A DNA stretch of 64,000 nt from Comamonas testosteroni (GTDB lineage Bacteria; Pseudomonadota; Gammaproteobacteria; Burkholderiales; Burkholderiaceae_C). Made by a program: the position numbers and the translations under genes. This document shows, piece by piece, positions 11,401-36,243 of this stretch. Each line of letters starts with the position of its first letter. The first letter of the stretch is position 1. The notes beneath the pieces are model-generated. The model did not search any database and was not told the DNA's origin. It saw nothing but the letters and a program-made list of their open reading frames with translations. The stretch is from positions 3,692,501 to 3,756,500 of the forward strand of contig NZ_CP129672.1 in the NCBI RefSeq assembly GCF_030505195.1. The letters run 5' to 3'.

Positions 11401-11624
11401 AGGCGCTGACCCTCAACGAAGATACGAAACGGAGGCAGCGGATCGTTGAGCACACCAACCAGCAGCAACTGCTTTTGTGCAAGCCACTGCCGCTCTGGCT
11501 GGGTCAGCGTGACCCTGACCTCGCTGAGTGCCTGGCGGGGAACTGGCGTCAGCACAAGGTCGCCCGCAAAACTAATCCGGCTGCAGATCAGCAAACAAAA
11601 GGCGATGTGCAACAGGCGCTGCAC
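8439..11624 (-). CDS. BvgS/EvgS-like hybrid sensor histidine kinase
   Basis: A 1061-residue multidomain kinase. It has a signal peptide (about 1-20), two tandem periplasmic Venus-flytrap SBP_bac_3 domains (about 45-270 and 290-515), one membrane helix (about 531-550), a short coiled linker, HisKA with phospho-acceptor His595 in [10 protein letters not shown], an HATPase domain (N and G boxes GNAIKFTH and [10 protein letters not shown]), a receiver with Asp885 in [10 protein letters not shown], and a C-terminal Hpt with His1007 in [10 protein letters not shown]. This is the His-Asp-His relay of BvgS and EvgS, but no PAS domain fits between membrane and HisKA. The GTG start lies 20 bp after the response regulator stop, indicating one operon. 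Confidence 0.93.
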
Positions 11625-19627: not shown

Positions 19628-20466
19628 ACCATATTGTTGAAGACTTCGGCGTGCTCCCACTGTGCCCAATGGCCGCACTGACTGAACACGTGGAACTCCG
19701 AGTTGGGAATGCCCCAGAGCAGGCGCAGGCCGATGTCCAATGGCACAAAGCGGTCGTCACGGCCCCAGATGATCAAGGTCCTGGCCTTGATTTCGGGCAG
19801 GCGCGCGCCGTAGTCGCTGAACTGCTTCGGGTTGATCTGGGCGCTCTTGACGAAGTTTTCGAGGTGATCACGGCGGGCCAGGATATTGCTCAGACGCTGC
19901 TGATAGAGCTCTTCGGTCAGGCTGCTGTTGTCGTACACAAACACATTCATCATGCGCTTGAGGTTCTCCACCGTGGGGTCGCGGTACAGCGCGCCGATGA
20001 GCTTGATGCCTTCGGCGGGCATGGGCACGAGGGCGCTGGGTCCGCCGGTGCCGCCGCCCATGAGGATGAGCTTGCCCACCATCTCGGGATGGGCCAGCGC
20101 AAAGCCCACGGCGCTATGACCGCCCATGGAGTTGCCGATGATGTGCACCTTGGCGATGTCCAGCGCGTCCAGCACGCCTTTGAGGCAGCGTGCGTTCAGA
20201 TCCGAGCGCGAGCCTGTGCTGACGATTGTGTCGCTTTTGCTCCAGCCGGGGCAGTCCAGCAAAATGACACGGTATCCCGCATTCACCAGCGGCTCGATAT
20301 TGCGGTGGAAGTTGGCCCAGCCGCTGGCGCCTGGGCCGGAGCCGTGCAGCATGACCACGACTTCGCTGCCGGAGCCGACATCGTTGTAGTGCAGCCTCAG
20401 GGGCTGTCCCGCTTCGGTGATCGTGACAAAGCGACTGCTGGAGGCTTGCGTGTTGGGGGCGTTCAT
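19606..20466 (-). CDS. mhpC: 2-hydroxy-6-oxonona-2,4-dienedioate hydrolase
   Basis: A 286-residue alpha/beta hydrolase of the MhpC/BphD family. It cleaves the meta-cleavage product of 2,3-dihydroxyphenylpropionate to 2-hydroxypenta-2,4-dienoate and succinate. Visible are the oxyanion segment [11 protein letters not shown], nucleophile Ser113 in GNSMGGHS, the acid in [10 protein letters not shown] and the histidine in CGHWAQWEH. The ATG at 20466 with CGGAG upstream is preferred over the GTG at 20493. It is the last gene of the mhp operon, after mhpE. Its 3' end meets the IclR/LysR chimera tail-to-tail with a 22-bp overlap. Confidence 0.93.
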
Positions 20467-20523
20467 AAATGACTCCGTGAAGGCGGCAGCCACGGCTGGC
20501 TGACCGCAGGGATGGTGAAGAGG

Positions 20524-21555
20524 TCAGAGGGAGGCGGCTTCGCGTTGCCTCAGCAGGTCCAGGGCGACGTCGACAATCATGTCTTCCTGACCGCCGACCA
20601 TGCGGCGCTTGCCCAGCTCGACCAGGATGTCCACGGCCTTGAGTCCGTATTTGGCGGCAGCCACTTCAGCGTGACGCAGGAACGAGCTGTAAACGCCTGC
20701 GTAGCCCAGTGCCAGCGTCTCGCGGTCCACGCGTACCGGACGGTCCTGCAAGGGGCGCACGATGTCGTCGGCCGCATCCATGAGCTTGTACAGATCGGTT
20801 CCGTGGTTCCAGCCCAGGCGCTCTGCGGCTGCGATGAACACCTCCAGCGGAGCATTGCCGGCCCCCGCACCCATGCCGGCCAGGCTGGCATCCACGCGGT
20901 CGCAGCCTTCTTCCACCGCCACGATGGAGTTGGCCACGCCCAGGCTCAGGTTGTGGTGGGCGTGCATGCCGGTCTGGGTTTCAGGCTTCAGAATGTCCTT
21001 GAAGGCCCTGAAGCGCTCCCGCACATCGTTCATGCCCAGCGCGCCGCCGGAGTCCACCACATAGCAGCAGGTGGCTCCGTAGCTTTCCATGAGTTTGGCC
21101 TGTTCGGCCAGGGCCTTGGGCGAGGTCATGTGGCTCATCATCAGAAAGCCCACGGCCTCCATGCCCAGATGGCGGGCGTACTCGATGTGCTGGCGGGACA
21201 CGTCGGCCTCGGTGCAGTGGGTGGCTACCCGCACCACGCGCACACCGGCTTCGTAGGCGGCCTTGAGGTCGTGGACGGTGCCAATGCCCGGCAGCAGCAA
21301 GGTGGTGATCTTGGCGTGCTTGACCACGCTGGCGACGGCCTCTATCCACTCCAGGTCGGTATGGGCACCAAAGCCATAGTTGAAGCTGGAGCCTTGCAGG
21401 CCGTCGCCGTGGGCGACCTCGATCGAGTCGACCTTGGCCTCATCCAGTGCCTGGGCAATCTGCCTGGCCTGCTCCACGCTGTACTGGTGACGAATGGCGT
21501 GGCTGCCGTCGCGCAGGGTCACGTCGGAGATGTAGATTTTCTTGGTTGGCGTCAT
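20524..21555 (-). CDS. mhpE: 4-hydroxy-2-oxovalerate aldolase
   Basis: A 343-residue class II pyruvate aldolase (HMGL-like TIM barrel followed by a communication domain). It splits 4-hydroxy-2-oxovalerate into pyruvate and acetaldehyde. [16 protein letters not shown] at the N terminus carries the catalytic Arg-Asp and metal ligand, and [15 protein letters not shown] supplies the metal-binding histidines. In this family the acetaldehyde is channelled directly to the acylating dehydrogenase MhpF, whose gene lies 14 bp upstream on the same strand. Length and motifs are normal. Confidence 0.95.
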
Positions 21556-21569
21556 GGTGTGTCGTCTCC

Positions 21570-22520
21570 TCAGGCGGCCACGGCGAGCGTCGCCAGCATG
21601 CGCTCGGCCATGTGCTCTGCAGTGCGCAGTCCGGCGCTGGTCATGATGTCAAGGTTGCCGGCATAAGCGGGCAGATAGTGGGCCGCGCCCTCGACTTCCA
21701 GAAAGATCGAGGTTTTCAGGCCCGTGAGGGCATGGCCCACGCCGGGGATGCGGATCGGGGTGTCGATACGGTCGAACTGCACCTGCTGCTTCAGGCGGTA
21801 GCCCGGCACATAGGACTGCACGGCAGCGGCCATCTGCTCCACCGATGCGGCAATGGCGGCCTCGTCGGCCAGCTCGCTCAGGGTGTAGACCGTGTCGCGC
21901 ATGATCAGGGGCGGCTCGGCCGGGTTCATGATGATGATGGCCTTGCCCTTGGTGGCACCGCCCACGACTTCGATCGCCTTGGACGTGGTCTCGGTGAACT
22001 CGTCGATATTGGCGCGGGTGCCGGGGCCGGCACTCTTGCTGGCAATCGAGGCAATGATTTCGCCGTAGTGCACCTTGGCCACGCGAGAGACGGCGGCCAC
22101 CATGGGGATGGTGGCCTGGCCGCCGCAGGTGACCATGTTCACATTCGGCGCGTCCAGATGCATGTCGCCGTTGACCACGGGAATGCAGTACGGGCCGATG
22201 GCCGCCGGCGTCAGGTCGATCATGCGGATGCCGGGCTTGAGGCTGCGCAAAAAGGCGTCGTTCTTCACATGTGCGCCGGCGCTGGTGGCATCGAACACAA
22301 AGTCGATCTCTGCGAACCCGGGCATGCGCGTGAGGCCTTCCACGCCCTCGTGGGTGGTGGCCACGCCCATGCGGGAGGCGCGGGCCAGGCCGTCGGAGTG
22401 GGGATCGATGCCGACCATGGCGCCCATCTCGATGTTTTTGCCATGGCGCAGGATCTTGATCATCAGATCCGTGCCGATATTGCCGCTGCCGATGATGGCG
22501 GCCTTGAGTTTGCGCGTCAT
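21570..22520 (-). CDS. mhpF: Acetaldehyde dehydrogenase (CoA-acylating)
   Basis: A 316-residue enzyme that oxidises acetaldehyde to acetyl-CoA with NAD+ and CoA. The N-terminal Rossmann motif is [18 protein letters not shown] and the catalytic cysteine lies in [15 protein letters not shown]. It forms a channelling complex with the MhpE aldolase encoded immediately downstream. It follows the two Bug-receptor genes in the operon, with a 22-bp gap. This is the final carbon-releasing step of the meta pathway before the TCA cycle. Confidence 0.95.
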
Positions 22521-22542
22521 AGCGTTTACCTTCAGAGAAAAA

Positions 22543-23520
22543 TCAGTCGATACCGGCTCCGCTGGACTGGATCAGCGGTGCCCAGCGTGCGATCTCGCTG
22601 TGGATGAATTGCTTGAATTGCTCCGGGGTTTGCGGATAGGCCTGCATGCCCTGGCTTTCGAAGCGTTTCTGTATGCCCGGCTCCCGCAAGGCTGCGACCA
22701 GCGCACGGTTCAATGTCTGGACCACCGTGGCAGGCGTTCCGCTTCGCACGGCTGCACCGAACCAGACGCCTGCATCGACACCGGACACTCCCAGCTCGGC
22801 CAGGGTGGGAACGTCGGGCAGTTGGGGGCTGCGTCTTTCAGAGGCAATCGCCAGCGCGCGCAGCTTTTTGCTGCGGATCAGGGCTTCGGTCGAGCTTGTG
22901 GGATCGAACATGAAGTCGACCCGGTTTGTCATCACGTCCTGCAGTGCCGGCACCGAGCCTTTGTAGGCCACATGAGACATGCCGCCACCGGTTTTGCTGC
23001 GAAACAGCTCCCCCAGCAGGTGGCCGATGGAGCCCAGGCCTTGGGATGCAAATGTCAGGCCTTGCTTGCTGCTGCGGGAAAGCGCCACCAGCTCGCTCAG
23101 CGTCCTGACAGGACTGGCGGCCGAAACCACGAGCACCAAAGGAGAGGTGACCAGAGACGTTACCGGCTCGAAGTCCTTGACGGGGTCGTAGGAAAACTTG
23201 CGAAACAGCGTTGGGTTGATGGCAAACATGGCCGTGCCAGCCACATACACGGTGTGTCCATCGGCGGCCTGTTGAAGCACTGCGCTGGCCGCAATCTGCC
23301 CGCCTGCGCCCGGCTTGTTGTCAACAATCACGGGCTTGCCCAGCTGCTGAGCCACATGCTGACCGAGGGCACGGGCCATGACGTCGCTGATGCCGCCGGC
23401 GGAAAACGGCAGCACGAGTGTGATGGGCTTGACGGGAAAGGCCTGCGCTGAGCCGAGGCCGCCGATCGACAGGCTGCCCAAGCCCAGAGCCGACTGCAAA
23501 AGAGTTCGACGATGCAACAT
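22543..23520 (-). CDS. Bug-family (TctC-type) substrate-binding protein, mhp operon copy 2
   Basis: A 325-residue periplasmic receptor of the tripartite tricarboxylate transporter family. A basic Tat-like or Sec signal ([15 protein letters not shown]) leads into [20 protein letters not shown], the usual Bug N-terminal strand and loop, and [14 protein letters not shown] is also typical. I start at the ATG at 23520, since the longer frame overlaps the preceding gene. It is closely related to the neighbouring receptor (23532-24509), suggesting tandem duplication. No TctA/TctB membrane genes occur in the window. Its place in the mhp operon suggests capture of a phenylpropionate-type acid. Confidence 0.9.
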
Positions 23521-23531
23521 TGGCGGCTTGC

Positions 23532-24509
23532 TCACTCGATCGAAGCGCCGCTGGCCTTGACCAGAGGGCCCCATTTGGTCAGCTCCGACTGCATGAAGCT
23601 GCCAAACTGGGCCGGGGTTGACGGGAACGCCTGCATGCCTTGATCGGCAAAACGCTTGACCACTTCAGGGTCCTTCATGGCCTGGTGGATGGCATCGTTC
23701 AGACGTTCAACCGCAGCTGCAGCGGTACCTGTCTTGACCACGGCACCGAACCACACGCCGGCATTCACACCGGGCACGCCAAGCTCGGCCAGGGTGGGTA
23801 CGTCCGGCATTTGTGGCGAACGCTTGTCGGCCGCAATCGCCAGGGGCTTGAGTTTCTTGCCGGCCACCAGGGGGGCTGTGGTGATGACCGGGTCGAACAT
23901 GAAGTCCACCTGTCCACCCATCACGTCCTGCAGTGCGGGGGCGGAGCCTTTATAGGCAACATGGTTGAACTTTCCGCCAACCTTGCCACGGAAGGTCTCT
24001 CCGAGAAGATGGCCGATGGAGCCCATACCCTGCGAGGCGAAGTTCAGTCCGTCCTTGCGGCTCTTGGCCTGGGCTATGAGTTCCTTGACGCTGGTCAGTG
24101 AACTATTGGCAGGCACGACCAGCACCAACGGCGAAGCGATCAGCGAAGTGACGGGACTGAAATCCTTCAGCGGGTCATATGAGAAATTGCGAAACAACGA
24201 GGGGTTGATGGCAAACATCTCGGTGGCACCGACATACAGGGTATGGCCGTCGGCCGCTTGCTGGCGCACATAGGCTGCCGCAATCTGGCCGCCTCCGCCG
24301 GGTCGGTTGTCAACGATGACAGGCTTGCCAAGCTGCTCCCCCATCTTGCTAGCCAGTGCACGCGCCACGGCATCGGTGATGCCTCCGGCCGGGAAGGGAA
24401 CGACCATGGTCACGGCACGGTTGGGGAAATTCTGCGCGATGGCGGGTGTACCCACGCAGGCAGCGAGCGAGGCAGCACCGGCTGCGAACAATTGACGTCG
24501 ATTCCACAT
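23532..24509 (-). CDS. Bug-family (TctC-type) substrate-binding protein, mhp operon copy 1
   Basis: A 325-residue Bug receptor. The signal peptide is MWNRRQLFAAGAASLAACVG ending near AIAQ; the mature protein opens NFPNRAVTMVVPFPAGGITD and has [25 protein letters not shown] precedes the ATG. It lies between mhpD and the second Bug gene, 11 bp from the latter. The two proteins share long identical runs, including [16 protein letters not shown] and the FPV/FPN start. As I recall, two open reading frames occupy this same place in the C. testosteroni TA441 mhp cluster. An uptake role is inferred. Confidence 0.9.
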   Translation of the reverse strand: MWNRRQLFAAGAASLAACVGTPAIAQNFPNRAVTMVVPFPAGGITDAVARALASKMGEQLGKPVIVDNRPGGGGQIAAAYVRQQAADGHTLYVGATEMFAINPSLFRNFSYDPLKDFSPVTSLIASPLVLVVPANSSLTSVKELIAQAKSRKDGLNFASQGMGSIGHLLGETFRGKVGGKFNHVAYKGSAPALQDVMGGQVDFMFDPVITTAPLVAGKKLKPLAIAADKRSPQMPDVPTLAELGVPGVNAGVWFGAVVKTGTAAAAVERLNDAIHQAMKDPEVVKRFADQGMQAFPSTPAQFGSFMQSELTKWGPLVKASGASIE

Positions 24510-24574
24510 GATTTGTCTCCTGAATAATCGTTATGAGCAATGGAAAACGGGGCCGGGAATGCTTTCGAGAAGAT

Positions 24575-25366
24575 TCACCGTTCAAACTGCGCGTACACGG
24601 AGCCGACGCCGCTGATGTGGGCTTCGAAGCGATCGCCGGCATTCACTGCGACCATGGGCCCCAGGGCACCGGTCAGCACGAGGTCGCCGGCTCGCAGCGC
24701 CTGGCCGAGGCTGGCGAGTCGGCGGGCCAGCCAAACGGCGGCATTCAGGGGATGGCCCAGGCAGGCTCCACCGGAGCCGGTGGAGACGACATCGCCATTG
24801 CGCGTCATCTGCATCTCGCACAGCTTCAGATCCAGTGCGTTGAGCGCAGTCGGTACGGCACCCAGCACGACCAGACCGCTGGACGCGTTGTCGGCCACGG
24901 TGTCAATGAAGCGGATGTTCCAGTCGGCAATGCGGCTGCCCACGATCTCGATGGCCGGAAGCACATAGGCGGTGGCGCTGATGACATCCACCAGCGTGGT
25001 GTCGGGTCGCTCCAGATCCTTGGCCAGCACCAGCGCCACCTCGGCCTCGACCTTGGGCTGAAGCGTCCGCGACAGGGGCACGACCTCATCGTCGCCGTAG
25101 AGCATGTCGGCGAACAGCGTGCCGAAGTCGGGTTGGTCCACGCCCAGCTGCTTTTGCACGGCAAGGGATGTCAGCCCGATCTTGCGACCCACAATCCGGC
25201 GGCCCTGACTCTGTGCATACAGCACATTGGCCAGTTGCACGGCATAGGCGCTGTCGTTGTCGGCGATCTCCTCGCGCAGGGGCGCAATGGGGGTGGCGGT
25301 GGCTTCCGCGTGGCGCAGGCGTTCGGCCCAGACCTGTATTTGCTTGGTGGTCGGCATGGCAGTCAT
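24575..25366 (-). CDS. mhpD: 2-keto-4-pentenoate hydratase
   Basis: A 263-residue member of the fumarylacetoacetate-hydrolase fold group. It adds water to 2-hydroxypenta-2,4-dienoate to give 4-hydroxy-2-oxovalerate, the MhpE substrate. Characteristic segments are [32 protein letters not shown], and the metal-binding [17 protein letters not shown]. An alternative ATG lies three codons in. It follows mhpB by 13 bp on the same strand, in keeping with a single transcript from mhpA onward. Confidence 0.94.
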
Positions 25367-25379
25367 GAAAGTATGAGGA

Positions 25380-26351
25380 TCAGTGGTGCATGAACATCAC
25401 GCCATAGCCCGCAATGAGCGATGGAATGGCGCGGTAGGTCCGTACAGGGCAGGGCAGGCGGGTGTTGGCAGGCAGGGCGGAGCGCGCCACCAGCCAGGTC
25501 TTGGACTCATGGGCAGAGTTGCCGGCCATGGCGCCGATCGAGGCTTCGCTCATTGCACATAAGCCGTCCAGCTGGCCGCTGGCCATGGCGTCCATCCATT
25601 GCAGATCCCACTCGGGGTTGAGCGGCTTCATCCAGCTGTCGCCATTGGCCAGAGCCAGACCGGCTGCCTTGACGCGCTCGGTCTTGAGCTCGCGCTCCTG
25701 CTCTGTGGGCGTGGAGCGGACGGTGATGCGCTCGCGTACGGCTGGGTCAGGATGGGCCAGTGTCGGCACGGGAGGCTCGTGCGACAGCCCGCCCGAACCA
25801 ATCAGCAGTGTGCGCTGTGGCAACCGGTCGAGAAAGCTGCCAATGCCTTCTCCCAGTGCCTTGCATCGGGCCATGCGCGCAATACCGGGTTGGGCTACTG
25901 CATTCATGAAGATGGGAATGACAGGCGGCGTGTCCATCTCGTCCCCCCACAGAAACTGCAGGGCCTGCGAAAAGCCGTGATCGACCCACATGCGCCGCGA
26001 CACCGCGATATCGAAATGTTTGTCCATCAGGTGGTCGGCCAGCGCTATGGCCAGTTCTCCAGCCACATTGAGAGGACCGGCTGGAGACAGATAGTCGCCC
26101 ACGGCCGTTGCCTGGCTGCCGATGCAAAACGGCGGCATCAGCTCATTGAAGAAGCCGTTGTAGTGGTCCGGCCCCAGCAGCACGATCAGCTCTGGCGAGA
26201 ACTCGTGAACGGCCGCCCGCGCCGCAGCAATCGCCTGGTCGATGGCGATCTGATCGTCTGCAGCGACAGGATTGAGACCGAGCAAAGGCGAGTGCGACAT
26301 ACCAAGAAATGCCCGGCGCGCAGTGGCGATGGCGCTACCACTCATCTTCAT
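25380..26351 (-). CDS. mhpB: 2,3-dihydroxyphenylpropionate 1,2-dioxygenase
   Basis: A 323-residue class III extradiol dioxygenase (LigB fold) with Fe(II). It opens the ring of 3-(2,3-dihydroxyphenyl)propionate. Likely iron-ligand or catalytic histidine segments are [26 protein letters not shown] and [15 protein letters not shown]; a C-terminal [17 protein letters not shown] segment is also family-typical. The start overlaps the mhpA stop by four bases (26348-26351), so translation is coupled. The N terminus is slightly extended relative to the conserved core, and a later start is possible. Confidence 0.94.
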
Positions 26352-28117
26352 GCCTCCAGTGGGGAATGCAGTACCCGGGCCATCTGGCGGGTGACAGCGC
26401 TGACCTCCTGCGGAGATGCCAGCGCCGCGACAAAGCGGTCCGGGCGCACGAACACCACCGACTTGCCCTGGGCGCTGAACCAGTCCTTGAGGCGGCCTTG
26501 TTCGTCGCCAACGGTCAGCACGCCATCGCGCGTGGGCGTTGGATGAAGCAGCTGGCCAGAGGGCATGGCACGAATGAAGCGAGCGCCAAGGCGCTGCCAG
26601 AAGTTCAGAGCCTCTTCGTCCATGCCATAGCTGGGGTCCGTACCCCAGGCCAGAATGCAGAAATTCAGTCCGACAAAGTCGTCCAGCAGGCCAGAGTGGC
26701 CGTTCGCAGTGGCCACCCGAGGCTGAATGAACATCCGGCCTACGGGACTGGAAGCCGCTGTCTCCAGGCCATGCACCAGACGCCCCACCAGAGACTCCTT
26801 CTTTTCCGCCATCAGGCCCAGAAGGCGGCTCAAGGGAGTGTTGCCCGAGCGGTCCAGCAGAGCGGCGAACGGTGTCCTGGCTCCTTGATTGCCGGTGCCC
26901 GTGTGGTGCAGCACCACGCCCTGCTCGTAGCGCGGCATGGGTTTGAAGCGCATCTCGGCGAAATACTGCTTGACGGGCGGCACAGCGTTCAGGGCCAGCA
27001 TCACCGTGTCGCGTACTTTGGCGGCGGTATGGCTTTCAGGGGCAAAGATGTCGCCTGCCACCTCGGACAAATGGATCATGCTGCGGGCATGGTCGCGGCG
27101 TTCCTGTTCGTAGCTGTCAAGCAGGCCGCTGCCGGCCTCTCCCCTGATGACCATGGCCAGCTTCCAGGCGAGATTGCTGGCATCGCGCATGCCGCTGTTG
27201 TAGCCCTGGCCCTGCCAGACCGGCATGATGTGCGCGGCATCGCCTGCCAGCAAGACTCGTCCGACCCGAAACTGCGCCGCCAGTCGTGCGTTGTGCGTAT
27301 ACACGCGCTTGCGGATGTAGTCGACCTTGTCCGGATCTGCGACGACCTTGCGCATCAGCTGGGCAAGGTTCTCCGGCTTTGAGAGCTGCTCTTCGGTCTC
27401 CCCAGGCATGACCATGAATTCAAAGCGGCGAATGCCATGCGGCAGGGCTGCAGAGACGTAGGGGCGCTCCGGGTCGCAATGCATGTCGATATGAGGGGTT
27501 CCCAGGGGGTCATTGCGTACATCAACCACAATCCATTGATTGGGTTTGGTACGGCCCTCAAAGGGTACGTTCAGCGTGCGACGCACCAGGCTATTGCCGC
27601 CATCGCTGGCGACCAGGTACCTGGCGCGCAGTGTGCGCTCTACGCCCTCGGAACTCCTGAGTGTGGCGGTGACGCCAGCATCGTCCTGGGTAAAGCCGTG
27701 AAGCTCCTGACCCAGCAGTACCTGGACCTGTTCAAAGCGCTGCAGCCCCCGGTACAGGATGTCGTCTACCTGAGGCTGGATGAAGGCATTGCGGCGGGAC
27801 CATCCGTACTCATCGGTGCGAGGCTCGATCGAGGCAAAGCACTGGCCGCTGGCGGTGTAGAAGCGCATCCAGTGATGAGGGGTGATGTGTGCCTGTACTT
27901 GATCGGACAGACCTGCTGCCTGCAGCGTGCGCAGCGATTCGTCGTCAATGCCGATGGCTCGGGGGTAGTCAATAATCTGTGGCAGCTTCTCTGCCACGAT
28001 GACGCGTACACCCGCCAGCCCCAGAGTGTTTGCCAGTGTCAGCCCTACCGGGCCGGCGCCAATGATCAGGACATCGGCATCGTCTTGACTCGCTTGGTTT
28101 TCTTGGGGGGCGTTCAT
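26348..28117 (-). CDS. mhpA: 3-(3-hydroxyphenyl)propionate hydroxylase
   Basis: A 589-residue FAD-dependent aromatic hydroxylase. It converts 3-(3-hydroxyphenyl)propionate with NADH and O2 to the 2,3-dihydroxy compound. The FAD motifs are [20 protein letters not shown] at the N terminus and [19 protein letters not shown] with [16 protein letters not shown] further on; a thioredoxin-like C-terminal domain follows. I use the ATG at 28117 with GGAG just upstream rather than the frame opening at 28210, which would run through the operator palindromes. It is first in the mhp operon, divergent from mhpR. Confidence 0.95.
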
Positions 28118-28153
28118 TTTCAGTCTCCGTATTGGGTGAGCGCATCGAGTGCT

Positions 28154-28173
28154 GTTTTGATCATTGTCAAAAC
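28154..28173. promoter_or_regulatory. Dyad in the mhpA leader
   Basis: GTTTTGA-TCATTG-TCAAAAC is an inverted repeat with seven-base arms, located between the mhpA start and the GTGCACC boxes. It may be part of the promoter or a second regulator site; the role is not readable. Confidence 0.4.
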
Positions 28174-28195
28174 ACTCGAGGAGTCTGAAAACACT

Positions 28196-28225
28196 GTGCA
28201 CCTGGTGCACCTATTGATAGGTGCA
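28196..28225. promoter_or_regulatory. Likely MhpR operators: two overlapping palindromes
   Basis: GTGCACC-T-GGTGCAC (28196-28210) is a perfect odd-centred palindrome that closely resembles the 17-bp E. coli MhpR operator as I remember it. It overlaps TGCACCTAT-TG-ATAGGTGCA (28206-28225), a perfect 20-bp palindrome. Together they place three GTGCACC-type half-sites between mhpA and the IclR-type activator gene. Binding by MhpR is inferred. Confidence 0.65.
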
Positions 28226-28444: not shown

Positions 28445-29230
28445 ATGAATGACTACAAGGATGTACGCAGTTTGTCGCGAGGGCTGGCTCTGCTGCAGGC
28501 CATGAATAGAGCCCCTGGCGGCATCGCTTCAACCACGGCACTGGCACAGGCATGCGATATCCATCGCACCACCGTCAAGCGATTGATGGAGACCTTGCGG
28601 GCGGAGGGCTTCGTGCGCAGGGGTGAGAAAGACGGGCAGTACTACCTGACTTTTGCAGTGCGCAGCCTTAGCGAAGGGCTTGTCGATGATGCCTGGGTTG
28701 AGCAGGTCGCACTACCGCTGATGCGTGCTGCTGTGCCCGAGCTGCTTTGGCCTTGCGATCTGGGGACCGTGGAAGGCGGCTTTATGGTGGTGCGTGAGAG
28801 CACGCACCGTTTCAGCCGGTTGTCTCAGCATCGCGGCATGATTGGAGAAAAATTGCCGCTGTTCTTCACGGCGATGGGACGCGCCTATCTGGCGTCTTGC
28901 ACCAAAGATGAGAGGGAAGGCTTGCTCTCGTTGCTCGCTCAGCGTGACGATGCCACTGGTGCCATGGCAAGGGATAGAGCATCGGTAGAGCGTTTGATTG
29001 AAGAGACGCGCCAGCGAGGGTATGGCATCAGCGATGGTGATTGGCATCAGCAAGCGCCGTTTGGAGCAGTCGCAGTGCCATTGAAGTGTGGACGTCGTTT
29101 GATCGGAGGTCTGAATCTGGTCTTCCCGAAGTCTGCTGTCGCCAGGGAGGAGTTGATTGCCCGCTATCTTCCCCGATTGAAGAAGCTGGCTGTGCGCATG
29201 GGCAAGGATGTGGCGCCTTGGCTGGACTAG
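28445..29230 (+). CDS. mhpR: IclR-family activator of the mhp operon
   Basis: A 261-residue IclR regulator. The N-terminal winged helix has VRSLSRGLALLQAMNRAPGG and CDIHRTTVKRLMETLRAEGF, and the effector domain contains GRAYLASCTKDEREGL. In E. coli the homologous MhpR activates mhp transcription with 3-(3-hydroxyphenyl)propionate as inducer. It is divergent from mhpA across 327 bp containing the GTGCACC palindromes. The ATG at 28445 starts the conserved MNDYKDVRSLSRGL segment; the longer frame from 28322 adds residues without family resemblance. Confidence 0.9.
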   Translation: MNDYKDVRSLSRGLALLQAMNRAPGGIASTTALAQACDIHRTTVKRLMETLRAEGFVRRGEKDGQYYLTFAVRSLSEGLVDDAWVEQVALPLMRAAVPELLWPCDLGTVEGGFMVVRESTHRFSRLSQHRGMIGEKLPLFFTAMGRAYLASCTKDEREGLLSLLAQRDDATGAMARDRASVERLIEETRQRGYGISDGDWHQQAPFGAVAVPLKCGRRLIGGLNLVFPKSAVAREELIARYLPRLKKLAVRMGKDVAPWLD

Positions 29231-29341: not shown

Positions 29342-30286
29342 TCAGGCCGCTGCATCGTGACGGTGCAGCAGATCCAGGAACATCTGTGCCGATCGGCTGA
29401 TGGGCCGATCCTTGCGTACCAGGCTGCCATAAGCCTCCAGGCTGCGCCTTGTCTGATACGGCAGGATATGCAGCATGCGGTGGGCGGCATGAAGATCTGC
29501 CACCGTGCGCGGAATCACGCCCACCATGTTCGAGTTTCGCACCAGATTGATGGTGGTGAGTATGGAGCCGGTTTCGATCAGGCCGCGTGGCAGCGGCAGA
29601 CTGTGTTCGCGGAACTCCTGCTCGATCAAGGTGCGCATGGGGCTGCCGGGCGGCTGCATCACCCAGCCATGCCCCTGCAAGGCCTGCAGACCGGGCCGCT
29701 GCAGCGACAGCAGAGGGTGCTCCTCCCGCACGATGAAGGCCAGCTGCTCGTCGTCGATCGGGCAAAAGCGGCAATCGCTGCCCGCTTCATTGGTCATGCG
29801 CCCGACGACCACCTCCAGCACTCCCTCACGCAGCTGCGCCAGCAAGCGATCGCTGGTGTCCACGGCCACTTCCAGCTCCAGCAGGGGCAGCTGCCTTTTC
29901 AGCTCCAGCAGGGCCTGGGTAAGCCGCCCGGGCGATGCGGCCATGATGCTGCCCACGGCCAGCCGTCCGGAGCTTCCCTGGCGCAGCTCGCCCAGTTCGC
30001 GATTCAGGGCCTCGATATTGCCGCGCAGCGAACGGAAATACTCCAGCACCCGCTCGCCTGCCGCATTGCGCTGCAGCCGTCGGCCCACCCGCTCGAACAG
30101 CGGCTGACCCAGGGCATCTTCGAGCTCCTGCAGCATCTTGGTGGCGGCCGGCTGGGTCAGACCGAGCTCGGCCGCTGCCGCGCGCAAGGTCTGGCGCTCG
30201 TCGATGGCCAGTATCAAGGCCACCTGGCGCATGCGCAGCCGGTTCAGCAGCTGTGGCGTGTTGTCGCGTTTGTCGATCGATCCCAT
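29342..30286 (-). CDS. LysR-family regulator (GbpR-like) of the sugar-acid cluster
   Basis: A 314-residue LysR regulator. The winged helix includes LILAIDERQTLRAAAAELGL and TQPAATKMLQELEDALGQPL, and the C-terminal effector domain carries GWVMQPPGSPMRTLIEQEF. The sequence style is that of the GbpR/galactose-binding-regulator branch, which commonly controls sugar and sugar-acid genes. It is divergent from the Bug receptor and catabolic genes starting at 30402, with a 20-bp near-perfect palindrome in the 115-bp gap that is a good operator candidate. The effector is unknown. Confidence 0.9.
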   Translation of the reverse strand: MGSIDKRDNTPQLLNRLRMRQVALILAIDERQTLRAAAAELGLTQPAATKMLQELEDALGQPLFERVGRRLQRNAAGERVLEYFRSLRGNIEALNRELGELRQGSSGRLAVGSIMAASPGRLTQALLELKRQLPLLELEVAVDTSDRLLAQLREGVLEVVVGRMTNEAGSDCRFCPIDDEQLAFIVREEHPLLSLQRPGLQALQGHGWVMQPPGSPMRTLIEQEFREHSLPLPRGLIETGSILTTINLVRNSNMVGVIPRTVADLHAAHRMLHILPYQTRRSLEAYGSLVRKDRPISRSAQMFLDLLHRHDAAA

Positions 30287-30309
30287 GGCATGGCTTCTTA
30301 TTGCTTCAG

Positions 30310-30329
30310 GTTATCGATTAATCAATAAC
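30310..30329. promoter_or_regulatory. Candidate LysR operator upstream of the sugar-acid operon
   Basis: GTTATCGATTAATCAATAAC is a 20-bp palindrome with only one mismatched pair. It lies between the divergent LysR and Bug-receptor genes, where the regulator of such clusters usually binds. The AT-rich dyad also fits the T-N11-A LysR pattern. Confidence 0.55.
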
Positions 30330-30401
30330 TTTCAGTTTACGCATATCAGCGGCTTCCCTAGGATCGGGCTGCGATGAAATAAAAAAGCCAAGGAGACCAA
30401 T

Positions 30402-31379
30402 GTGCAAAGACGTCATCTACTTTCCATAGCCGCAGTGTGCGGCGCCGCCGCGCTGCCCTGGCAGGCCCAGGCACAGGACTCTGCGAACTGGCCCGTCAAG
30501 CCCGTGCGCATGCTGGTGGGCTCTGCTCCCGGAGGCGGCACCGATGCCATGGCCCGCGCCGTGGCCGACAGGCTGGGGCCGCTGCTCAAGCAGCCGGTGA
30601 TCGTGGAGAACCGGCCCGGCGTCTCCAACACGCTGGCCGTGGACATGACGGCCAAGGCCACGGACGGCCACACCATGGTCATGGGCGTGGTCACGGCCCA
30701 TGCCATCGCGCCGCATCTGCTCAAGCTGGGATACGACAACAACCGGGATCTGGTGCCCGTGGCCTTTGTCGGCTCGGTGCCCAACGTGCTGGTGGTGGGC
30801 AACTCCGTTGCCGCCAACACGGTGGCGGAGCTGGTGGCCATGGCCAGGAAGAATCCCGGTCAGATCAATTTCGCCAGCAGCGGCACGGGCAGCACCCAGC
30901 ATATCGCTGCCGAGGTGTTCAAGGATGCCGCAGGCATTCAGATCACCCATGTGCCCTACAAGGGCAGCGCCGCCGCCCTGGTCGATCTGGTCAGCGGCCA
31001 GGTGCAGATGAGCTTCGACACCATGCCCTCGGTCATAGGCCAGATCAAGGCCGGCAAGCTGCGCGCTCTGGCGGTCACTTCGCCCCAGCGCAACCCCCAG
31101 CTGCCGCAGGTGCCGACCATGGCCGAAGCGGGTCTGCGCAATGTGGAAATCAGCGCCTGGTATGGCATCTACATGCCGGCCTCCACGCCCAAGGCGGTGC
31201 AGCAAAAAGTGCATGACGAGGTCAACAAGGTCATCGCCATGCCAGAGACCAAGACCCGTCTCGAGGCCGTGGGTGCCGAGTTGCGGCCCATGTCCCAGGC
31301 CGACTTTGGCAGCTTTCATCTCGCCGAGTACAAGCGCTTTGGCGACATCATTCGCAAGAACAACATCAAGCTGGATTGA
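30402..31379 (+). CDS. Bug-family (TctC-type) substrate-binding protein
   Basis: A 325-residue periplasmic receptor. The signal peptide MQRRHLLSIAAVCGAAALPW ends near AQAQ; the mature part has WPVKPVRMLVGSAPGGGTDA, KQPVIVENRPG and HVPYKGSAAALVDL. It starts with GTG at 30402, six bases after AGGAG (30391-30395); the out-of-frame ATG at 30400 ends quickly. It is first in the sugar-acid operon, so the ligand is probably the sugar acid degraded by the following genes. As with the mhp pair, no TctA/TctB partner is present in the window. Confidence 0.9.
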   Translation: MQRRHLLSIAAVCGAAALPWQAQAQDSANWPVKPVRMLVGSAPGGGTDAMARAVADRLGPLLKQPVIVENRPGVSNTLAVDMTAKATDGHTMVMGVVTAHAIAPHLLKLGYDNNRDLVPVAFVGSVPNVLVVGNSVAANTVAELVAMARKNPGQINFASSGTGSTQHIAAEVFKDAAGIQITHVPYKGSAAALVDLVSGQVQMSFDTMPSVIGQIKAGKLRALAVTSPQRNPQLPQVPTMAEAGLRNVEISAWYGIYMPASTPKAVQQKVHDEVNKVIAMPETKTRLEAVGAELRPMSQADFGSFHLAEYKRFGDIIRKNNIKLD

Positions 31380-31381
31380 GC

Positions 31382-32431
31382 ATGAGCAAGGTTTCTCTTC
31401 CCGTTGTCGCCCTGACCCTGGGCGATCCGTGCGGCATCGGCGCCGAACTCATCGCACGCTTGCTGGCCAGGCCGCAAGCCACCGAGCAGGCGAATCTGGT
31501 GCTGATCGGCGATCCCTGGCTCTGGGAGCAGGGCCAGCGCATCGCCGGTGTGCAAGTGGCAACCGTTGCGTTGGCCGGCCTGTGCGCAGCGCGCGAGCGT
31601 GCCGATACGCGGCTGCCGGCCTTTGTGGCTGTGGACACCGTCGCCCAGGCCGATGTGGTGCTGGGGCAGGTGGGGGCGGCGGGCGGCCGCTCGGTGCTGC
31701 AGGTGCTCGACCAATGCATGGATGCGGCACTGGCGGGCGATATCGACGCCATCTGCTTTGCGCCCTTGAATAAGCAGGCCATGAAGCTGGGCGGCCTGCG
31801 CCACGAGGACGAGTTGCACCACTTTGCCGAGTACCTGGGCGTGACCGGCTACTTCTGCGAGTTCAACACGCTGGGCGATCTCTGGACCTCGCGCATCTCG
31901 TCCCATGTGCCGCTCAAGGATGTGGCCGGCTATCTGAGCGTGGAGCGCATCAGCCAGGCGGCCGAGCTGATCTACAACGCCTTGCGCGCCAACGGTTTTG
32001 CGGCACCCAAGGTGGCGATTGCCGGCTTCAACCCGCACAACGGCGACGGCGGCACCTGCGGCCGCGAGGAAATCGACATCATCGCGCCCGCCGTGCAGGC
32101 CCTGCAGGCGCGCGACTGGCCCAGCGATGCGCCGTTCCACGGCCCGTTCCCGGCCGACACCATCTTCCTCAAGGCCCAGGCCGGCGAGTACCAGGCCATC
32201 GTGACCATGTACCACGACCAGGGCCAGATCGCCATCAAGCTGCTGGGCTTCTCGCGCGGGGTGACGGTGCAGGGCGGCCTGCCGATTCCCATCACCACGC
32301 CGGCCCATGGCACGGCCTACGACATCGCGGGCCAGGGCAAGGCCAATGCGGAGGCCACCTGGCAGGCGCTGCAGATTGCCGCACGCATGGGGGCCGCCCA
32401 CCGCGATCGCCAGGCCGCCCCAGCCGTCTGA
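31382..32431 (+). CDS. PdxA-family NAD-dependent dehydrogenase (non-pyridoxine context)
   Basis: A 349-residue member of the PdxA family (4-hydroxythreonine-4-phosphate dehydrogenase fold). Metal-binding histidines are recognisable in RHEDELHHFAEYLG, ISSHVPLKDVAGYL and VTMYHDQGQIAIKLL, and the TLGDPCGIGAELI opening is typical. Family members oxidise a hydroxyl next to a phosphate or carboxylate: PdxA2/DtnK-type enzymes act on threonate or erythronate phosphates, and TphB acts on an unphosphorylated dihydrodiol dicarboxylate. No sugar-acid kinase gene is present here. It starts just past the Bug receptor stop and precedes an acid-sugar dehydratase, so a catabolic role is likely. The exact substrate is unknown. 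Confidence 0.8.
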   Translation: MSKVSLPVVALTLGDPCGIGAELIARLLARPQATEQANLVLIGDPWLWEQGQRIAGVQVATVALAGLCAARERADTRLPAFVAVDTVAQADVVLGQVGAAGGRSVLQVLDQCMDAALAGDIDAICFAPLNKQAMKLGGLRHEDELHHFAEYLGVTGYFCEFNTLGDLWTSRISSHVPLKDVAGYLSVERISQAAELIYNALRANGFAAPKVAIAGFNPHNGDGGTCGREEIDIIAPAVQALQARDWPSDAPFHGPFPADTIFLKAQAGEYQAIVTMYHDQGQIAIKLLGFSRGVTVQGGLPIPITTPAHGTAYDIAGQGKANAEATWQALQIAARMGAAHRDRQAAPAV

Positions 32432-32491
32432 GCCCATTTTCCGGGCGGCTTGGGCCGCCTGTCCTACTCACTCTTTTCTTCCGAGGTCTGT

Positions 32492-33664
32492 ATGAAGATC
32501 AAGTCCGTCCGCGCCCGTGTCTATCAATGGAAGGGCAAGACCGTTCCGCCCCAGGGCAACTTCTGCTCCAACGCCATGGATCTGGTCTATTCCAACACCG
32601 AGTCCATGAGCACCTTCCGCTTCCATTCGTGGACCGTGGTCGAGATCGAAACCGATGACGGCATCATCGGCCTGGGCAATGTGGCCCTGGCGCCAAAAAT
32701 AGCCAAGGCCATCATCGACGAGTACCTAGCGCCCCTGGTCATCGGCCAGGACCCCTGGGACTACGAATACCTGTGGCAGCGCATGTACCGCGCCACCCAC
32801 GCCTGGGGCCGCAAGGGCGTGACCATGGCCGCCATCTCGGCTGTGGATCTGGCCATCTGGGACATCTTGGGCAAGAGCGTGAACAAGCCCGTGTTCAAGC
32901 TGCTGGGCGGGCGTACCAAGGAAAAGATTCCCTGCTACTACAGCAAGCTCTACCGCACCGACCTGAAAGAGATGCAGGACGAGGCGCAGAAATTCCTCGA
33001 TCAGGGTTTCAAGGCCTTCAAGATGCGCTTTGGCTACGGCCCGGCCCATCTGCAGGACGGCGTGCGCGAGAACCTCAAGTCGGTCGAAGCCATCCGTGAA
33101 GTGATCGGCTACGACACCGACCTGATGCTGGAGTGCTATATGGGCTGGAACCTGGAGTACGCCAAGCGCATGCTGCCCAAGCTCGCCAGGTTCGAGCCGC
33201 GCTGGCTCGAAGAGCCCGTGATCGCCGACGACATCGACGGCTACGCCGAGCTCAACGCCATGAACATCATCCCCATCTCGGGCGGCGAGCACGAGTTTTC
33301 GCTCTACGGCTTCAAGCAGTTGCTGGACAAGAAGGCCGTCTCCGTCGTGCAGTACGACACCAACCGCGTGGGCGGCATCACGGCGGCGCACAAGATCAAT
33401 GCCCTGTGCGAGGCCTATTCCGTGCCCGTGATCCCGCATGCCGGCCAGATGCACAACTACCACCTGACCATGAGCACGCTGGCCTCGCCCATGGCCGAGT
33501 ACTTCCCCATCTTCGACGTGGAAGTGGGCAACGAGCTGTTCTGGTACATCTTCGACGGCGAGCCGGTTGCCGACAACGGCTTTTTGCAGCTGCGCGACGA
33601 CGTGCCGGGCCTGGGTCTGTCGCTCAAGAGCGAGTACCTGGACCAGTTCGACATCATCGAATAA
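32492..33664 (+). CDS. Enolase-superfamily acid-sugar dehydratase (L-rhamnonate dehydratase-like)
   Basis: A 390-residue mandelate racemase/muconate lactonizing enzyme homologue. Putative Mg2+ ligands are Glu214 (LMLECYMGW), Glu240 (WLEEPV) and Glu266 (SGGEHE); His316 in [12 protein letters not shown] is the likely catalytic base, as in L-rhamnonate-type dehydratases, paired with Asp289. Such enzymes dehydrate aldonic acids to 2-keto-3-deoxy acids. I use the ATG at 32492 ([13 protein letters not shown]). It is 11 bp upstream of the keto-deoxy-acid dehydratase gene, which would take its product. Whether the substrate is a pentonate or hexonate cannot be read. Confidence 0.82.
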
Positions 33665-33675
33665 GGAGCCGCACC

Positions 33676-34605
33676 ATGCCTGGACTCTCGAACCCGCGCT
33701 ACCGCGGCATCTACCCGGTGGTTCCCACCACCTTCCACGAGGACGGCACGCTGGACCTGGCCAGCCAGAAGCGCTGCCTGGACTTCATGATCGACTCGGG
33801 CGTTCATGGTCTGTGCATCCTGGCCAACTTCTCCGAGCAGTTCCTGGTCTCGGACGAGGAGCGCGAAATCCTCACGCGCACGGCGCTGGAGCATGTGGCC
33901 GGCCGCGTGCCCGTGATCGTGACCACCACCCACACCAGCACCAAGGTCTGCGCCGAACGCAGCCGCCGCGCCCAGGACATGGGCGCCGCCATGGTCATGG
34001 TCATGCCGCCCTACCACGGTGCCACCTTCCGCTTTGGCGAAGCCCAGGTGCAGGCCTTCTACCAGGGCGTGTCCGACGCCATCGACATCCCCATCATGGT
34101 CCAGGATGCGCCGGCCGCAGGCACGCCGCTGCCGCCCGCCTTTCTGGCCCGCATGGCCAAGGAGATCGAACAGGTCAGCTACTTCAAGATGGAAACTGCC
34201 GGTGCAGCAAACAAGCTGCGTGAGCTGATCGCCCTGGGTGGTGAAGCCATCGAAGGCCCCTGGGACGGAGAGGAAGCCATCACCTTGCTGGCCGACCTGG
34301 AGGCCGGCGCGACCGGTGCCATGACCGGCGGCGGCTTTGCCGACGGCATACGCCCCATCATCGAGGCGCACCGCGCAGGCGACAAGGACAAGGCCTTCGA
34401 GCTGTACCAGCGCTGGCTGCCGCTGATCAACCACGAAAACCGCCAGGCCGGTTTCCTGGCCGCCAAGGCGCTGATGAAGGAGGGCGGCGTGATCGCCTGC
34501 GACGCGCCGCGCTCGCCCTGGCCGCCCATGCATCCCGAGGTGCGCCGCCAGTTGCTGGACATCGCACGCCGGCTGGACCCGCTGGTGCTGCGCTGGGCCC
34601 GTTGA
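33676..34605 (+). CDS. 2-keto-3-deoxy-L-arabonate dehydratase-like (DHDPS family)
   Basis: A 309-residue DapA/NAL-superfamily protein that closely resembles the Azospirillum L-2-keto-3-deoxyarabonate dehydratase as I recall it: GIYPVVPTTF, HGLCILANFSEQF, PPYHGATFR, MVQDAPAAGT and EAITLLADL. Lys171 in YFKMET is the Schiff-base lysine, and MVQDAP replaces the YN-P motif of true DapA. It should turn a 2-keto-3-deoxypentonate into 2-oxoglutarate semialdehyde, the substrate of the next gene. The start follows AAGGAG at 33663-33668; the long frame beginning at 33133 is out of register with the upstream gene and is rejected. Confidence 0.87.
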   Translation: MPGLSNPRYRGIYPVVPTTFHEDGTLDLASQKRCLDFMIDSGVHGLCILANFSEQFLVSDEEREILTRTALEHVAGRVPVIVTTTHTSTKVCAERSRRAQDMGAAMVMVMPPYHGATFRFGEAQVQAFYQGVSDAIDIPIMVQDAPAAGTPLPPAFLARMAKEIEQVSYFKMETAGAANKLRELIALGGEAIEGPWDGEEAITLLADLEAGATGAMTGGGFADGIRPIIEAHRAGDKDKAFELYQRWLPLINHENRQAGFLAAKALMKEGGVIACDAPRSPWPPMHPEVRRQLLDIARRLDPLVLRWAR

Positions 34606-34620
34606 GACGACTATGAATAC

Positions 34621-34702
34621 AGGAGCTGCTAGCGCTTGTTGATTCAGGAATTCAGATACTTTTCATTCTGATATCTATGAATAACGGGCGCAGCTAGCTC
34701 CT
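34621..34702. repeat. Dispersed palindromic element, copy B
   Basis: Arms AGGAGCTGCTAGCGCTTG and the reverse complement of ...GCAGCTAGCTCCT bound an 82-bp imperfect palindrome with a TTCAGATA/TCTGATAT core. It is similar in ends and core to 12942-13023 and 54954-55045. It sits between two genes of the sugar-acid operon and may moderate expression of the last gene. Confidence 0.65.
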
Positions 34703-34719
34703 CTATCAAGAGCATATCC

Positions 34720-36168
34720 ATGACCCCACACCACAATCTGATCAACGGCCAGTGGACGGCTGCTGACAGCTACGCCTCCAACACCAACCCCAGCGACCTG
34801 TCCGATGTGATCGGCGAGTACACCCAGGGCGGTGCGTCCGACGTGCAGGCCGCCGTGGCCGCCGCCGCTGCTGCGTTTCCCGCCTGGTCCACTTCGGGCA
34901 TCCAGGCGCGCTCCGACGCCCTGGACAAGATAGGCACGGAGATTCTGGCGCGCAAGGCCGAGCTCGGCGAGCTGCTGGCCCGCGAAGAAGGCAAGACCCT
35001 GCCCGAAGCCATTGGCGAAGTCGGCCGCGCCGGCCAGATCTTCAAGTTCTTTGCCGGCGAATGCCTGCGCCTCACGGGCGAGACCGTGCCCTCGGTGCGC
35101 CCCGGCATCGGCGTGGAGATCACGCGCGAGCCGATGGGCGTGGTCGGCCTGATCACGCCCTGGAACTTCCCCATCGCCATTCCCGCCTGGAAGATCGCCC
35201 CGGCCCTGGCCTTCGGTAACTGCGTGGTGCTCAAACCCGCCGATCTGGTGCCCGGCAGCGCCTGGGCCCTGGCCGACATCATCCACCGCTCGGGCCTCCC
35301 CGCCGGCGTCTTCAACCTGGTCATGGGCTCGGGCCGCGTCATCGGCGAAGCCCTGGTGAACCATGCCGATGTGGCAGCCATCAGCTTCACGGGCTCGGTG
35401 GGCGTGGGCCGCGGCATCGCGGCAGCCTGCGTGGCTTCGGGCAAGAAGGTGCAGCTGGAAATGGGCGGCAAGAACCCCCAGATCGTGCTGGACGACGCCG
35501 ACCTGGAGCAGGCCGTAGAGCTGTCGGCGCAAAGCGGCTTCTACTCCACGGGCCAGCGCTGCACGGCATCAAGCCGCCTGATCGTCACTGACAAGATCTA
35601 CCCGGCCTTCATCGAAGCCCTGCAGGCGCGCATGGCGCGCATCAAGGTTGGCGATGCACGCGCCGCCGGCACCGACATGGGCCCCGTGGTGAGCCAGGCC
35701 CAGCTGGAGCAGGACCTGGGCTACGTGGAAATCGCCAAGGCCGAAGGCGCGCGCCTGGCGGCCGGCGGCAGCCGCATCGCCTGCCACACGGGCAGCGGCA
35801 AGCAGGGCTACTACATGGCGCCCACGCTGTTTGTGGACACCGAAGCGGGCATGCGCATCAACCGCGAGGAAGTCTTCGGCCCGGTGGCCAGCGTGATCCG
35901 CGTCAAGGACTACGAAGAGGCCCTGGCCATGTCCAACGACACGCCGTTTGGCCTGTCGGCCGGCATTGCCACCACCAGCCTCAAGTACGCCACGCACTTC
36001 AAGCGCCACAGTCAGGCCGGCATGGTCATGGTCAACTTGCCCACGGCGGGGGTGGACTACCACGTGCCGTTTGGCGGACGCAAGGGATCGAGCTACGGCC
36101 CGCGCGAGCAGGGCCGCTATGCCCAGGAGTTCTACACCACGGTGAAGACGGCCTATACGCTGGCGTGA
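34720..36168 (+). CDS. 2-oxoglutarate semialdehyde dehydrogenase
   Basis: A 482-residue aldehyde dehydrogenase of the alpha-ketoglutaric semialdehyde/succinate semialdehyde group. Cofactor and active-site segments are GLITPWNFPIAIPAWKIAPA, the general base in LEMGGKNPQIVL and the catalytic cysteine in STGQRCTASSRLIV. After a 2-keto-3-deoxypentonate dehydratase, the expected reaction is 2-oxoglutarate semialdehyde to 2-oxoglutarate, linking the pathway to the TCA cycle. Succinate semialdehyde activity is possible, since sequence alone does not separate these. An 82-bp palindrome lies between it and the preceding gene. Confidence 0.88.
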   Translation: MTPHHNLINGQWTAADSYASNTNPSDLSDVIGEYTQGGASDVQAAVAAAAAAFPAWSTSGIQARSDALDKIGTEILARKAELGELLAREEGKTLPEAIGEVGRAGQIFKFFAGECLRLTGETVPSVRPGIGVEITREPMGVVGLITPWNFPIAIPAWKIAPALAFGNCVVLKPADLVPGSAWALADIIHRSGLPAGVFNLVMGSGRVIGEALVNHADVAAISFTGSVGVGRGIAAACVASGKKVQLEMGGKNPQIVLDDADLEQAVELSAQSGFYSTGQRCTASSRLIVTDKIYPAFIEALQARMARIKVGDARAAGTDMGPVVSQAQLEQDLGYVEIAKAEGARLAAGGSRIACHTGSGKQGYYMAPTLFVDTEAGMRINREEVFGPVASVIRVKDYEEALAMSNDTPFGLSAGIATTSLKYATHFKRHSQAGMVMVNLPTAGVDYHVPFGGRKGSSYGPREQGRYAQEFYTTVKTAYTLA

Positions 36169-36243
36169 TGCGCTGGCCTGCGTTTTTGCGGATTGCTGCT
36201 TCTGCCGGGCCTGGTGCCCGGCTTTTTCATGGCGCGGCGGCGA

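Follow-up and report, generated by a model that had tools for sequence, protein, structure and literature searches.

A stand-alone operon of Comamonas testosteroni that probably encodes the lower half of the bacterial L-ascorbate pathway

A 64,000-nucleotide stretch of Comamonas testosteroni contig NZ_CP129672.1 (positions 3,692,501 to 3,756,500; hereafter the window) carries at positions 29342 to 36168 a small catabolic operon in which a PdxA-family enzyme precedes a sugar-acid dehydratase. We consider it likely that what lies here, by itself, is the lower half of the L-ascorbate (vitamin C) catabolic route of bacteria. Its genes and families are those that an earlier note had read from the DNA (a receptor, a PdxA-like enzyme, two dehydratases, and a semialdehyde dehydrogenase), and Pfam and NCBIfam matches bear that reading out:

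29342 to 30286, minus strand: LysR-family regulator, divergent from the operon (PF00126/PF03466)
30402 to 31379, plus strand: TctC (tripartite tricarboxylate transporter) receptor (PF03401, 229 bits)
31382 to 32431, plus strand: PdxA-family enzyme (PF04166, 280 bits)
32492 to 33664, plus strand: MR/MLE enolase-superfamily dehydratase, LyxD by sequence (651 bits to 3stp)
33676 to 34605, plus strand: DHDPS-family protein, proposed 2-keto-3-deoxypentonate dehydratase (PF00701, 116 bits)
34720 to 36168, plus strand: ALDH-superfamily protein, proposed alpha-ketoglutaric semialdehyde dehydrogenase (PF00171, 540 bits)
36204 to 36222, plus strand: terminator-like hairpin with a T tail, 3' of the last gene (the count of such sites, 4 against 3.5 expected, is not above that in shuffles)

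The L-ascorbate pathway of Cupriavidus necator, which Stack et al. are said to have described in 2020, reportedly employs a b561-family oxidase, a gluconolactonase-family lactonase, a WD40-like enzyme for a benzilic acid rearrangement, and an amidohydrolase-superfamily lactonase. In the same pathway, a PdxA-family enzyme is said to decarboxylate unphosphorylated 2-carboxy-L-lyxonate with catalytic NAD+ to L-lyxonate, which then reaches 2-oxoglutarate by the L-lyxonate route. That route, reportedly worked out in Pseudomonas aeruginosa PAO1 by Ghasempur et al. in 2014, is said to consist of LyxD, a second dehydratase, and a semialdehyde dehydrogenase. The window operon resembles the C. necator pathway in having a PdxA-family enzyme, a proposed decarboxylase, that would feed L-lyxonate to LyxD, a dehydratase, and a semialdehyde dehydrogenase, and relatives of its genes sit in loci with beta-propeller, amidohydrolase, gluconolactonase-family, or b561 genes; it differs in being headed by a TctC receptor and in lying in a genome without b561, propeller, and amidohydrolase orthologues.

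From the gene content, relatedness, pocket residues, and conservation observed, together with the absence of three upstream orthologues, we infer the reactions, the receptor ligand, and the regulation of the operon as follows. The TctC receptor would deliver 2-carboxy-L-lyxonate (2-carboxy-L-threo-pentonate), a branched six-carbon diacid derived from vitamin C via 2,3-diketogulonate. The PdxA-family enzyme would use bound NAD+ to oxidize the hydroxyl beta to the carboxylates, CO2 would be lost, and the product would be reduced back to yield L-lyxonate, a step that would require no kinase and be redox neutral overall. LyxD would dehydrate L-lyxonate to 2-keto-3-deoxy-L-lyxonate, the DHDPS-family enzyme would dehydrate this to alpha-ketoglutarate semialdehyde, and the ALDH would oxidize the semialdehyde to 2-oxoglutarate. 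The signal for the LysR regulator is probably one of the early intermediates.

The source genome (two contigs, completeness 100) contains three PdxA-family genes. The copy at C1:1771500 is a true pdxA (370 bits against the TIGR00557 pdxA equivalog cut-off of 290), and the copy at C1:4022712 is TphB, the terephthalate cis-dihydrodiol dehydrogenase, located in a tph-type operon with Rieske oxygenase, reductase, and TctC genes; the best solved relatives of the latter are 8zj7 and its variants (PdxA by depositor title), followed by TphB 4aty. The window protein scores 252 bits, below the same cut-off. With the true pdxA and tphB elsewhere in the genome, the idea that the window gene is the strain's sole pyridoxine gene, which the earlier note had named as one that would refute its reading, was rejected. 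The metal histidines of Escherichia coli PdxA, H166, H211, and H266, are kept as window H175, H219, and H278, and K274 is kept as K286. In contrast, H136, T137, N283, and R292, which we take to be the substrate-phosphate contacts of the E. coli enzyme, are replaced by E144, L145, T295, and I304. The four E. coli residues are all present in the genome's true PdxA but missing from its TphB, which shows Y, P, S, A, and L at the compared pocket sites, where the window protein has E, L, H, T, and I.

The 80 related loci compared are the best 80 of at least 594 confirmed matches to six peptide patterns from the window PdxA-like protein. When the window sequence is added to these, giving 81, E144 is present in all 81 and L145 in 79; T295 occurs in 80 and I304 in 78, with a single gap at each of these two positions. 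One selecting pattern spans E144 to H146, and the conservation there is partly due to selection, while T295 and I304 lie outside the patterns. The E. coli residue is replaced in every sequence that has a residue at the site (81/81 for H136 and for T137, 80/80 for N283 and for R292). Because the phosphate-site residues are replaced, the substrate is most likely unphosphorylated and no linked kinase would be needed, as the earlier note had supposed; action on a phosphorylated substrate appears unlikely.

The enolase-type protein scores 651 bits against the solved chain 3stp, 643 against 3ssz, and 634 against 3sqs, the next being 202, and it has the KxR motif of the LyxD type (K177, R179). K177, R179, D289, and H316 are invariant in 68/68 sequences, and R179 and H316 are presumably the residue numbers of the essential Arg and His in characterized LyxD. 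By sequence, this enzyme is LyxD, the L-lyxonate dehydratase. The other two enzymes are linked to LyxD by family, both scoring under the curated thresholds of the NCBIfam models that match them best. The DHDPS-family protein, with a lysine (K171) within YFKMETA, scores 50 bits against KdgD (cut-off 374) and 86 against dapA (cut-off 206); the KdgD score led us to reject a D-glucarate/galactarate route. The ALDH, which has C281 and E247, finds its best NCBIfam model in alpha-ketoglutaric semialdehyde dehydrogenase (521 bits, below the cut-off of 770). The proposal of the earlier note that the last three enzymes form a nonphosphorylating route to 2-oxoglutarate is supported, for LyxD by sequence and for the other two by family. 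According to two articles, an L-KDP dehydratase belongs to the DHDPS superfamily (PMC6336799), and a COG4948 (enolase-type) enzyme is required in the ascorbate degradation pathway attributed to Stack 2020 and Ghasempur 2014 (PMC10444878).

The neighborhoods of the 80 loci connect the operon with the rest of the ascorbate pathway. Unknown neighbors were clustered, cluster representatives were named with Pfam, and counts were made per locus within the examined flanks. LyxD (>300 bits) occurs in 67 of the 80 loci, no more than 400 nucleotides (nt) from PdxA in 58 of these 67; taken the other way round, selection by LyxD within the genus gave 18 stretches, each of which has the PdxA gene beside it (two arrangements being cut by a contig edge and one having a DctP gene between PdxA and LyxD). 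The neighborhood comparison that the earlier note had proposed as a check finds the pair together from both directions. The neighbor families comprise Amidohydro_2, a YNCE-like beta-propeller, SMP-30/gluconolactonase (SGL), cytochrome b561, FAH-family proteins, and MFS and TRAP transporters. The ascorbate-pathway families among them are represented by amidohydrolase in 41 loci, beta-propeller in 31, the gluconolactonase family in 14, and cytochrome b561 in 9; LyxD, b561, SGL, and propeller stand together in 7/80. The 31 propeller loci include 20 with amidohydrolase, 12 with SGL, and 7 with b561, and 21 of the 80 loci have an amidohydrolase with no propeller in reach. The earlier note had placed the PdxA-like step outside known schemes, as a possible new entry reaction; the occurrence of the PdxA-LyxD pair in loci with other L-ascorbate pathway genes speaks against this.

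Similar gene sets are found on plasmids. A Sphingomonas plasmid record has b561, SGL, YncE-like, PdxA, and dehydratase genes; a Variovorax plasmid record has TctC, PdxA, dehydratase, DHDPS, and b561; and a Ruegeria plasmid has a propeller homologue (tblastn, 35% over 316 residues) followed by PdxA, dehydratase, DHDPS, and ALDH. An unannotated Cupriavidus megaplasmid has LysR, DHDPS, TctC, PdxA, and LyxD within the stretch read, where propeller, amidohydrolase, SGL, and b561 queries gave no match. PdxA lies near LyxD in loci of other Pseudomonas species too. A DHDPS-family or FAH-family protein is present in 59 of the 67 LyxD loci and both together in 0/80, and by this distribution the DHDPS-family enzyme replaces the FAH-family protein of other loci. 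The operon thus shares LyxD, a second dehydratase, and a semialdehyde dehydrogenase with the PAO1 L-lyxonate pathway, but its second dehydratase is of the DHDPS family, whereas that of most Pseudomonas loci read is of the FAH family.

In a PdxA tree (101 rows, built by a quick method with SH-aLRT support only), propeller-linked and short-locus rows are interleaved, and the starred branches force at least 8 and at least 11 label changes. For rows of the 80 loci, "short" denotes no propeller or amidohydrolase within the examined flanks, rows without LyxD being grouped apart. Gaps aside, E144, H146, W168, T169, H175, H219, H278, K286, T295, A308, and H309 are invariant across 32 propeller-linked and 40 short-locus PdxAs; at each of L145, Q297, and I304, one or two short-locus rows deviate, and F replaces C226 in 3 of the 32 propeller-linked rows. 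The 12 positions that differ most between the two groups lie outside the 16 tabulated pocket positions and were not taken as a change of substrate. Because the tree is interleaved and the pocket residues are nearly the same, the comparison supports one substrate, 2-carboxy-L-lyxonate, for both groups. The window enzyme is most likely an NAD+-dependent 2-carboxy-L-lyxonate decarboxylase, which on the ascorbate-pathway reading would be redox neutral and not a net oxidase of the TphB kind.

The upstream half of the pathway was sought genome-wide. A propeller profile built from 12 sequences was run on 16 genomes (the strain's own and named ones, the latter mostly drafts), and in most named genomes the genome-wide search covered the propeller only. 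Full-length matches of 523 to 545 bits were obtained in four of the 16, those of loci L010 and L040 (both in the profile), L006, and L031. The flank counts understate the propeller, because L006 and L031 carry it in the genome but outside the locus flanks. The remaining 12 genomes (own and 11 named) have partial matches only, of at most 63 bits, which were not counted; what the strain itself has is likewise partial (32% over 151 residues, and no more than 32 bits with the profile) and was left out of the count too. The same searches gave propeller, amidohydrolase, and b561 orthologues in other genomes and not in the strain's own (G000).

LyxD is found in 18 of 53 genomes of the genus (at least 817 bits; next 194), a set that overlaps the named genomes by at least two assemblies. 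Among these 18, propeller and b561 occur only in G065, and an amidohydrolase of >400 bits occurs only in G065 and G054. Matches of 412 to 515 bits, plus one of 369 for a second copy in G011, were counted as amidohydrolase orthologues; those of 110 to 139 bits in five same-genus genomes were not. G065 holds both forms of the locus. Its full locus comprises LysR, PdxA, LyxD, DHDPS, TctC, sulfatase, b561, SGL, and propeller, with 87%, 98%, and 92% identity to the window in PdxA, LyxD, and DHDPS, respectively; a second, short locus, at a distance of 1.9 Mb, has the gene arrangement of the window operon, its PdxA being 96% and its LyxD 97% identical to the window's. The window operon could be imagined as a decaying remnant of the full one, but this was rejected: the LyxD reading frames are open in all 18 carriers, and the ratio of nonsynonymous to synonymous substitution (dN/dS) of the five operon genes is 0.066 to 0.240 (26 comparisons, six same-genus stretches), which indicates that the plus-strand genes are under purifying selection.

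The TctC receptor family binds carboxylates. Import of the diacid fits, because a receptor of a carboxylate family heads the operon and two TctA genes are present elsewhere in the genome; 2-carboxy-L-lyxonate taken up from outside is the probable starting point of the short operon. As to where the acid comes from, 2,3-diketogulonate forms 2-carboxy-L-threo-pentonate and its lactones by nonenzymic rearrangement according to two articles, with 2-carboxy-L-lyxonate as a synonym of the former (PMC6225978, PMC11066805). We see about an even chance that the stand-alone operon consumes 2-carboxy-L-threo-pentonate, and perhaps its lactones, as abiotic vitamin C products formed outside cells. On this reading, Comamonas, Delftia, Achromobacter, Lampropedia, and Polaromonas would have the lower half only, with TctC in front, and would live on such products with no breakdown of vitamin C by the known enzymes; one relative keeps both operons. 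No report of short operons scavenging these acids was met among the best-ranked papers of the literature searches, judged by title or abstract opening, in a coverage with subscription journals mostly outside it.

Other readings of the operon deserve weight. Dehydroascorbate or 2,3-diketogulonate might be imported instead, with rearrangement and lactone opening proceeding nonenzymically or by unrelated enzymes, so that vitamin C would be catabolized inside the cell. We think this unlikely: the three upstream orthologues were sought genome-wide and none was found, and the first gene of the operon encodes a receptor of a carboxylate-binding family. Some room for it is left by the six Amidohydro_2 matches in the genome and by the nonenzymic rearrangement of diketogulonate (PMC6225978, PMC11066805). 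Alternatively, the operon may serve L-lyxonate itself, on which P. aeruginosa PAO1 grows (PMC6336799, citing Ghasempur et al.), the PdxA-like protein being an accessory for a minor substrate. This is improbable given that PdxA stands beside LyxD in every one of the 18 same-genus stretches and has a dN/dS (0.105 to 0.240) similar to that of the other operon genes.

Two further readings turn on the chemistry of the PdxA-like enzyme. The earlier note favored net oxidation of another unphosphorylated hydroxy acid in the manner of TphB, as a new entry reaction. Like TphB, the window protein is a PdxA-family member without the phosphate-site residues, but it is only 26% identical to the genome's own TphB, has other residues at those sites, and is not in a tph-type operon; it scores 93 bits to TphB 4aty against 174 to 2hi1, and it groups with the PdxAs of propeller-bearing loci, whose pocket is nearly the same. 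We regard this reading as quite improbable and a redox-neutral decarboxylase as most likely. Finally, the enzyme could be a PdxA2-type dehydrogenase of a 4-phosphorylated acid. PdxA2/DUF1537 kinase routes handle D-threonate and D-erythronate; they share with the window the PdxA family and the metal site, and the best-scoring solved relatives of the window protein, 2hi1 and 6e85, are PdxA2-type entries. The window differs in having replaced phosphate-site residues and no linked kinase. The absence of a kinase, as the earlier note had it, holds locally: a single DUF1537 (PF07005) gene was found in the genome, about 3 Mb away, in another acid-sugar cluster with GntR, GntP permease, LtnD-like dehydrogenase, class II aldolase, and TIM-barrel genes and no PdxA gene. 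With its kinase placed there and H136, T137, N283, and R292 replaced throughout the sequences compared, this route was set aside and is very hard to credit.

Several points weigh against the ascorbate-pathway reading. The likeness to the assayed C. necator and P. aeruginosa enzymes is by description, not by sequence comparison. The strain's genome is without propeller, amidohydrolase, and b561 orthologues, the gluconolactonase family not having been searched for genome-wide. The complete set of five neighbors occurs in only one of the 80 loci (L073), b561/SGL and amidohydrolase mostly falling in separate loci, and only some relatives have an ALDH gene adjoining the cluster. Thirteen of the 80 loci have no LyxD of >300 bits in reach, some owing to a contig end. 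Among these thirteen, a Halomonas-group branch of five (L059, L061, L062, L063, and L065) has amidohydrolase and TRAP genes and no close LyxD, because of which its lower route must differ; to judge from such sequences, part of the PdxA family may serve another route. The PdxAs of this group are 59 to 61% identical to the window's, and LyxD relatives of just 27 to 29% identity are present in four of the loci and none in L059.

On the preferred reading, the operon is mostly explained by known chemistry, and what is new, if anything, is that it stands alone without the upstream half. The apparent hole in the sugar-acid scheme is closed by the link to a known, unusual decarboxylase. In public records (L151, L152, and L153), relatives of the window PdxA are annotated as 4-hydroxythreonine-4-phosphate dehydrogenase and those of LyxD as L-rhamnonate dehydratase; both names are probably wrong, and the pocket signature (E-L-H for H-T-E, T for N283, I for R292) could guide the correction of such annotations. 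Should the stand-alone proposal hold, the products into which vitamin C decays spontaneously would themselves count as a carbon source.

The five plus-strand genes are separated by gaps of 2, 60, 11, and 114 nt, in order, and are probably cotranscribed as one operon; no finding opposes this, and a search for a sigma-70-like promoter found none. The nearest named relative among the matches listed is Comamonas testosteroni JL40 (PdxA 97% identical). Of the 18 same-genus stretches, 14 show the whole order LysR / TctC, PdxA, LyxD, DHDPS, the other four being two at a contig edge, one full-pathway locus, and one with a DHDPS fragment only; TctC lies immediately upstream of PdxA in 15 of the 18, and a LysR homologue (>120 bits) is present in 55 of the 80 related loci. 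The ALDH gene 3' of the block varies in presence among the same-genus stretches. The 114-nt gap before it holds the sole window copy of an 18-nt motif taken from that gap. At this site (34606 to 34719), the spacing between DHDPS and ALDH matches is 117 nt in the window and L123 and 13 nt in L128 and L130, a difference that would fit the insertion of a small element before ALDH in testosteroni-like genomes. L128 (genome G052) has two ALDH genes, 90% and 89% identical to the window's, flanking the LysR-TctC-PdxA-LyxD-DHDPS block at both ends, with an SGL-family gene (36%) beyond the second.

A sulfatase gene (PF00884; CVPAR, matching the C-x-P-x-R motif) lies near b561 in 5 of the 10 loci that carry b561 (L124 and 9 from the set of 80). 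The L124 copy is at 10085 to 11581, and those of L031, L038, L041, and L043 are 70 to 78% identical to it. The enzyme could free ascorbate from ascorbate 2-sulfate, a sulfate-ester entry to the pathway; a literature search gave nothing on the point, judged by title, and no relative of the sulfatase turned up in the viral contigs that were scanned. Upstream of the operon, the window carries an mhp-type meta-cleavage cluster (19606 to 28210, minus strand) and an IclR regulator (28448 to 29230, plus strand). By Pfam, the cluster comprises an FAD monooxygenase, a LigB dioxygenase, an FAH-family hydratase, an acetaldehyde dehydrogenase, an HMGL-like aldolase, and a TctC gene; a hydrolase (19606 to 20493) and a second TctC-like gene (22543 to 23574) were assigned by eye.

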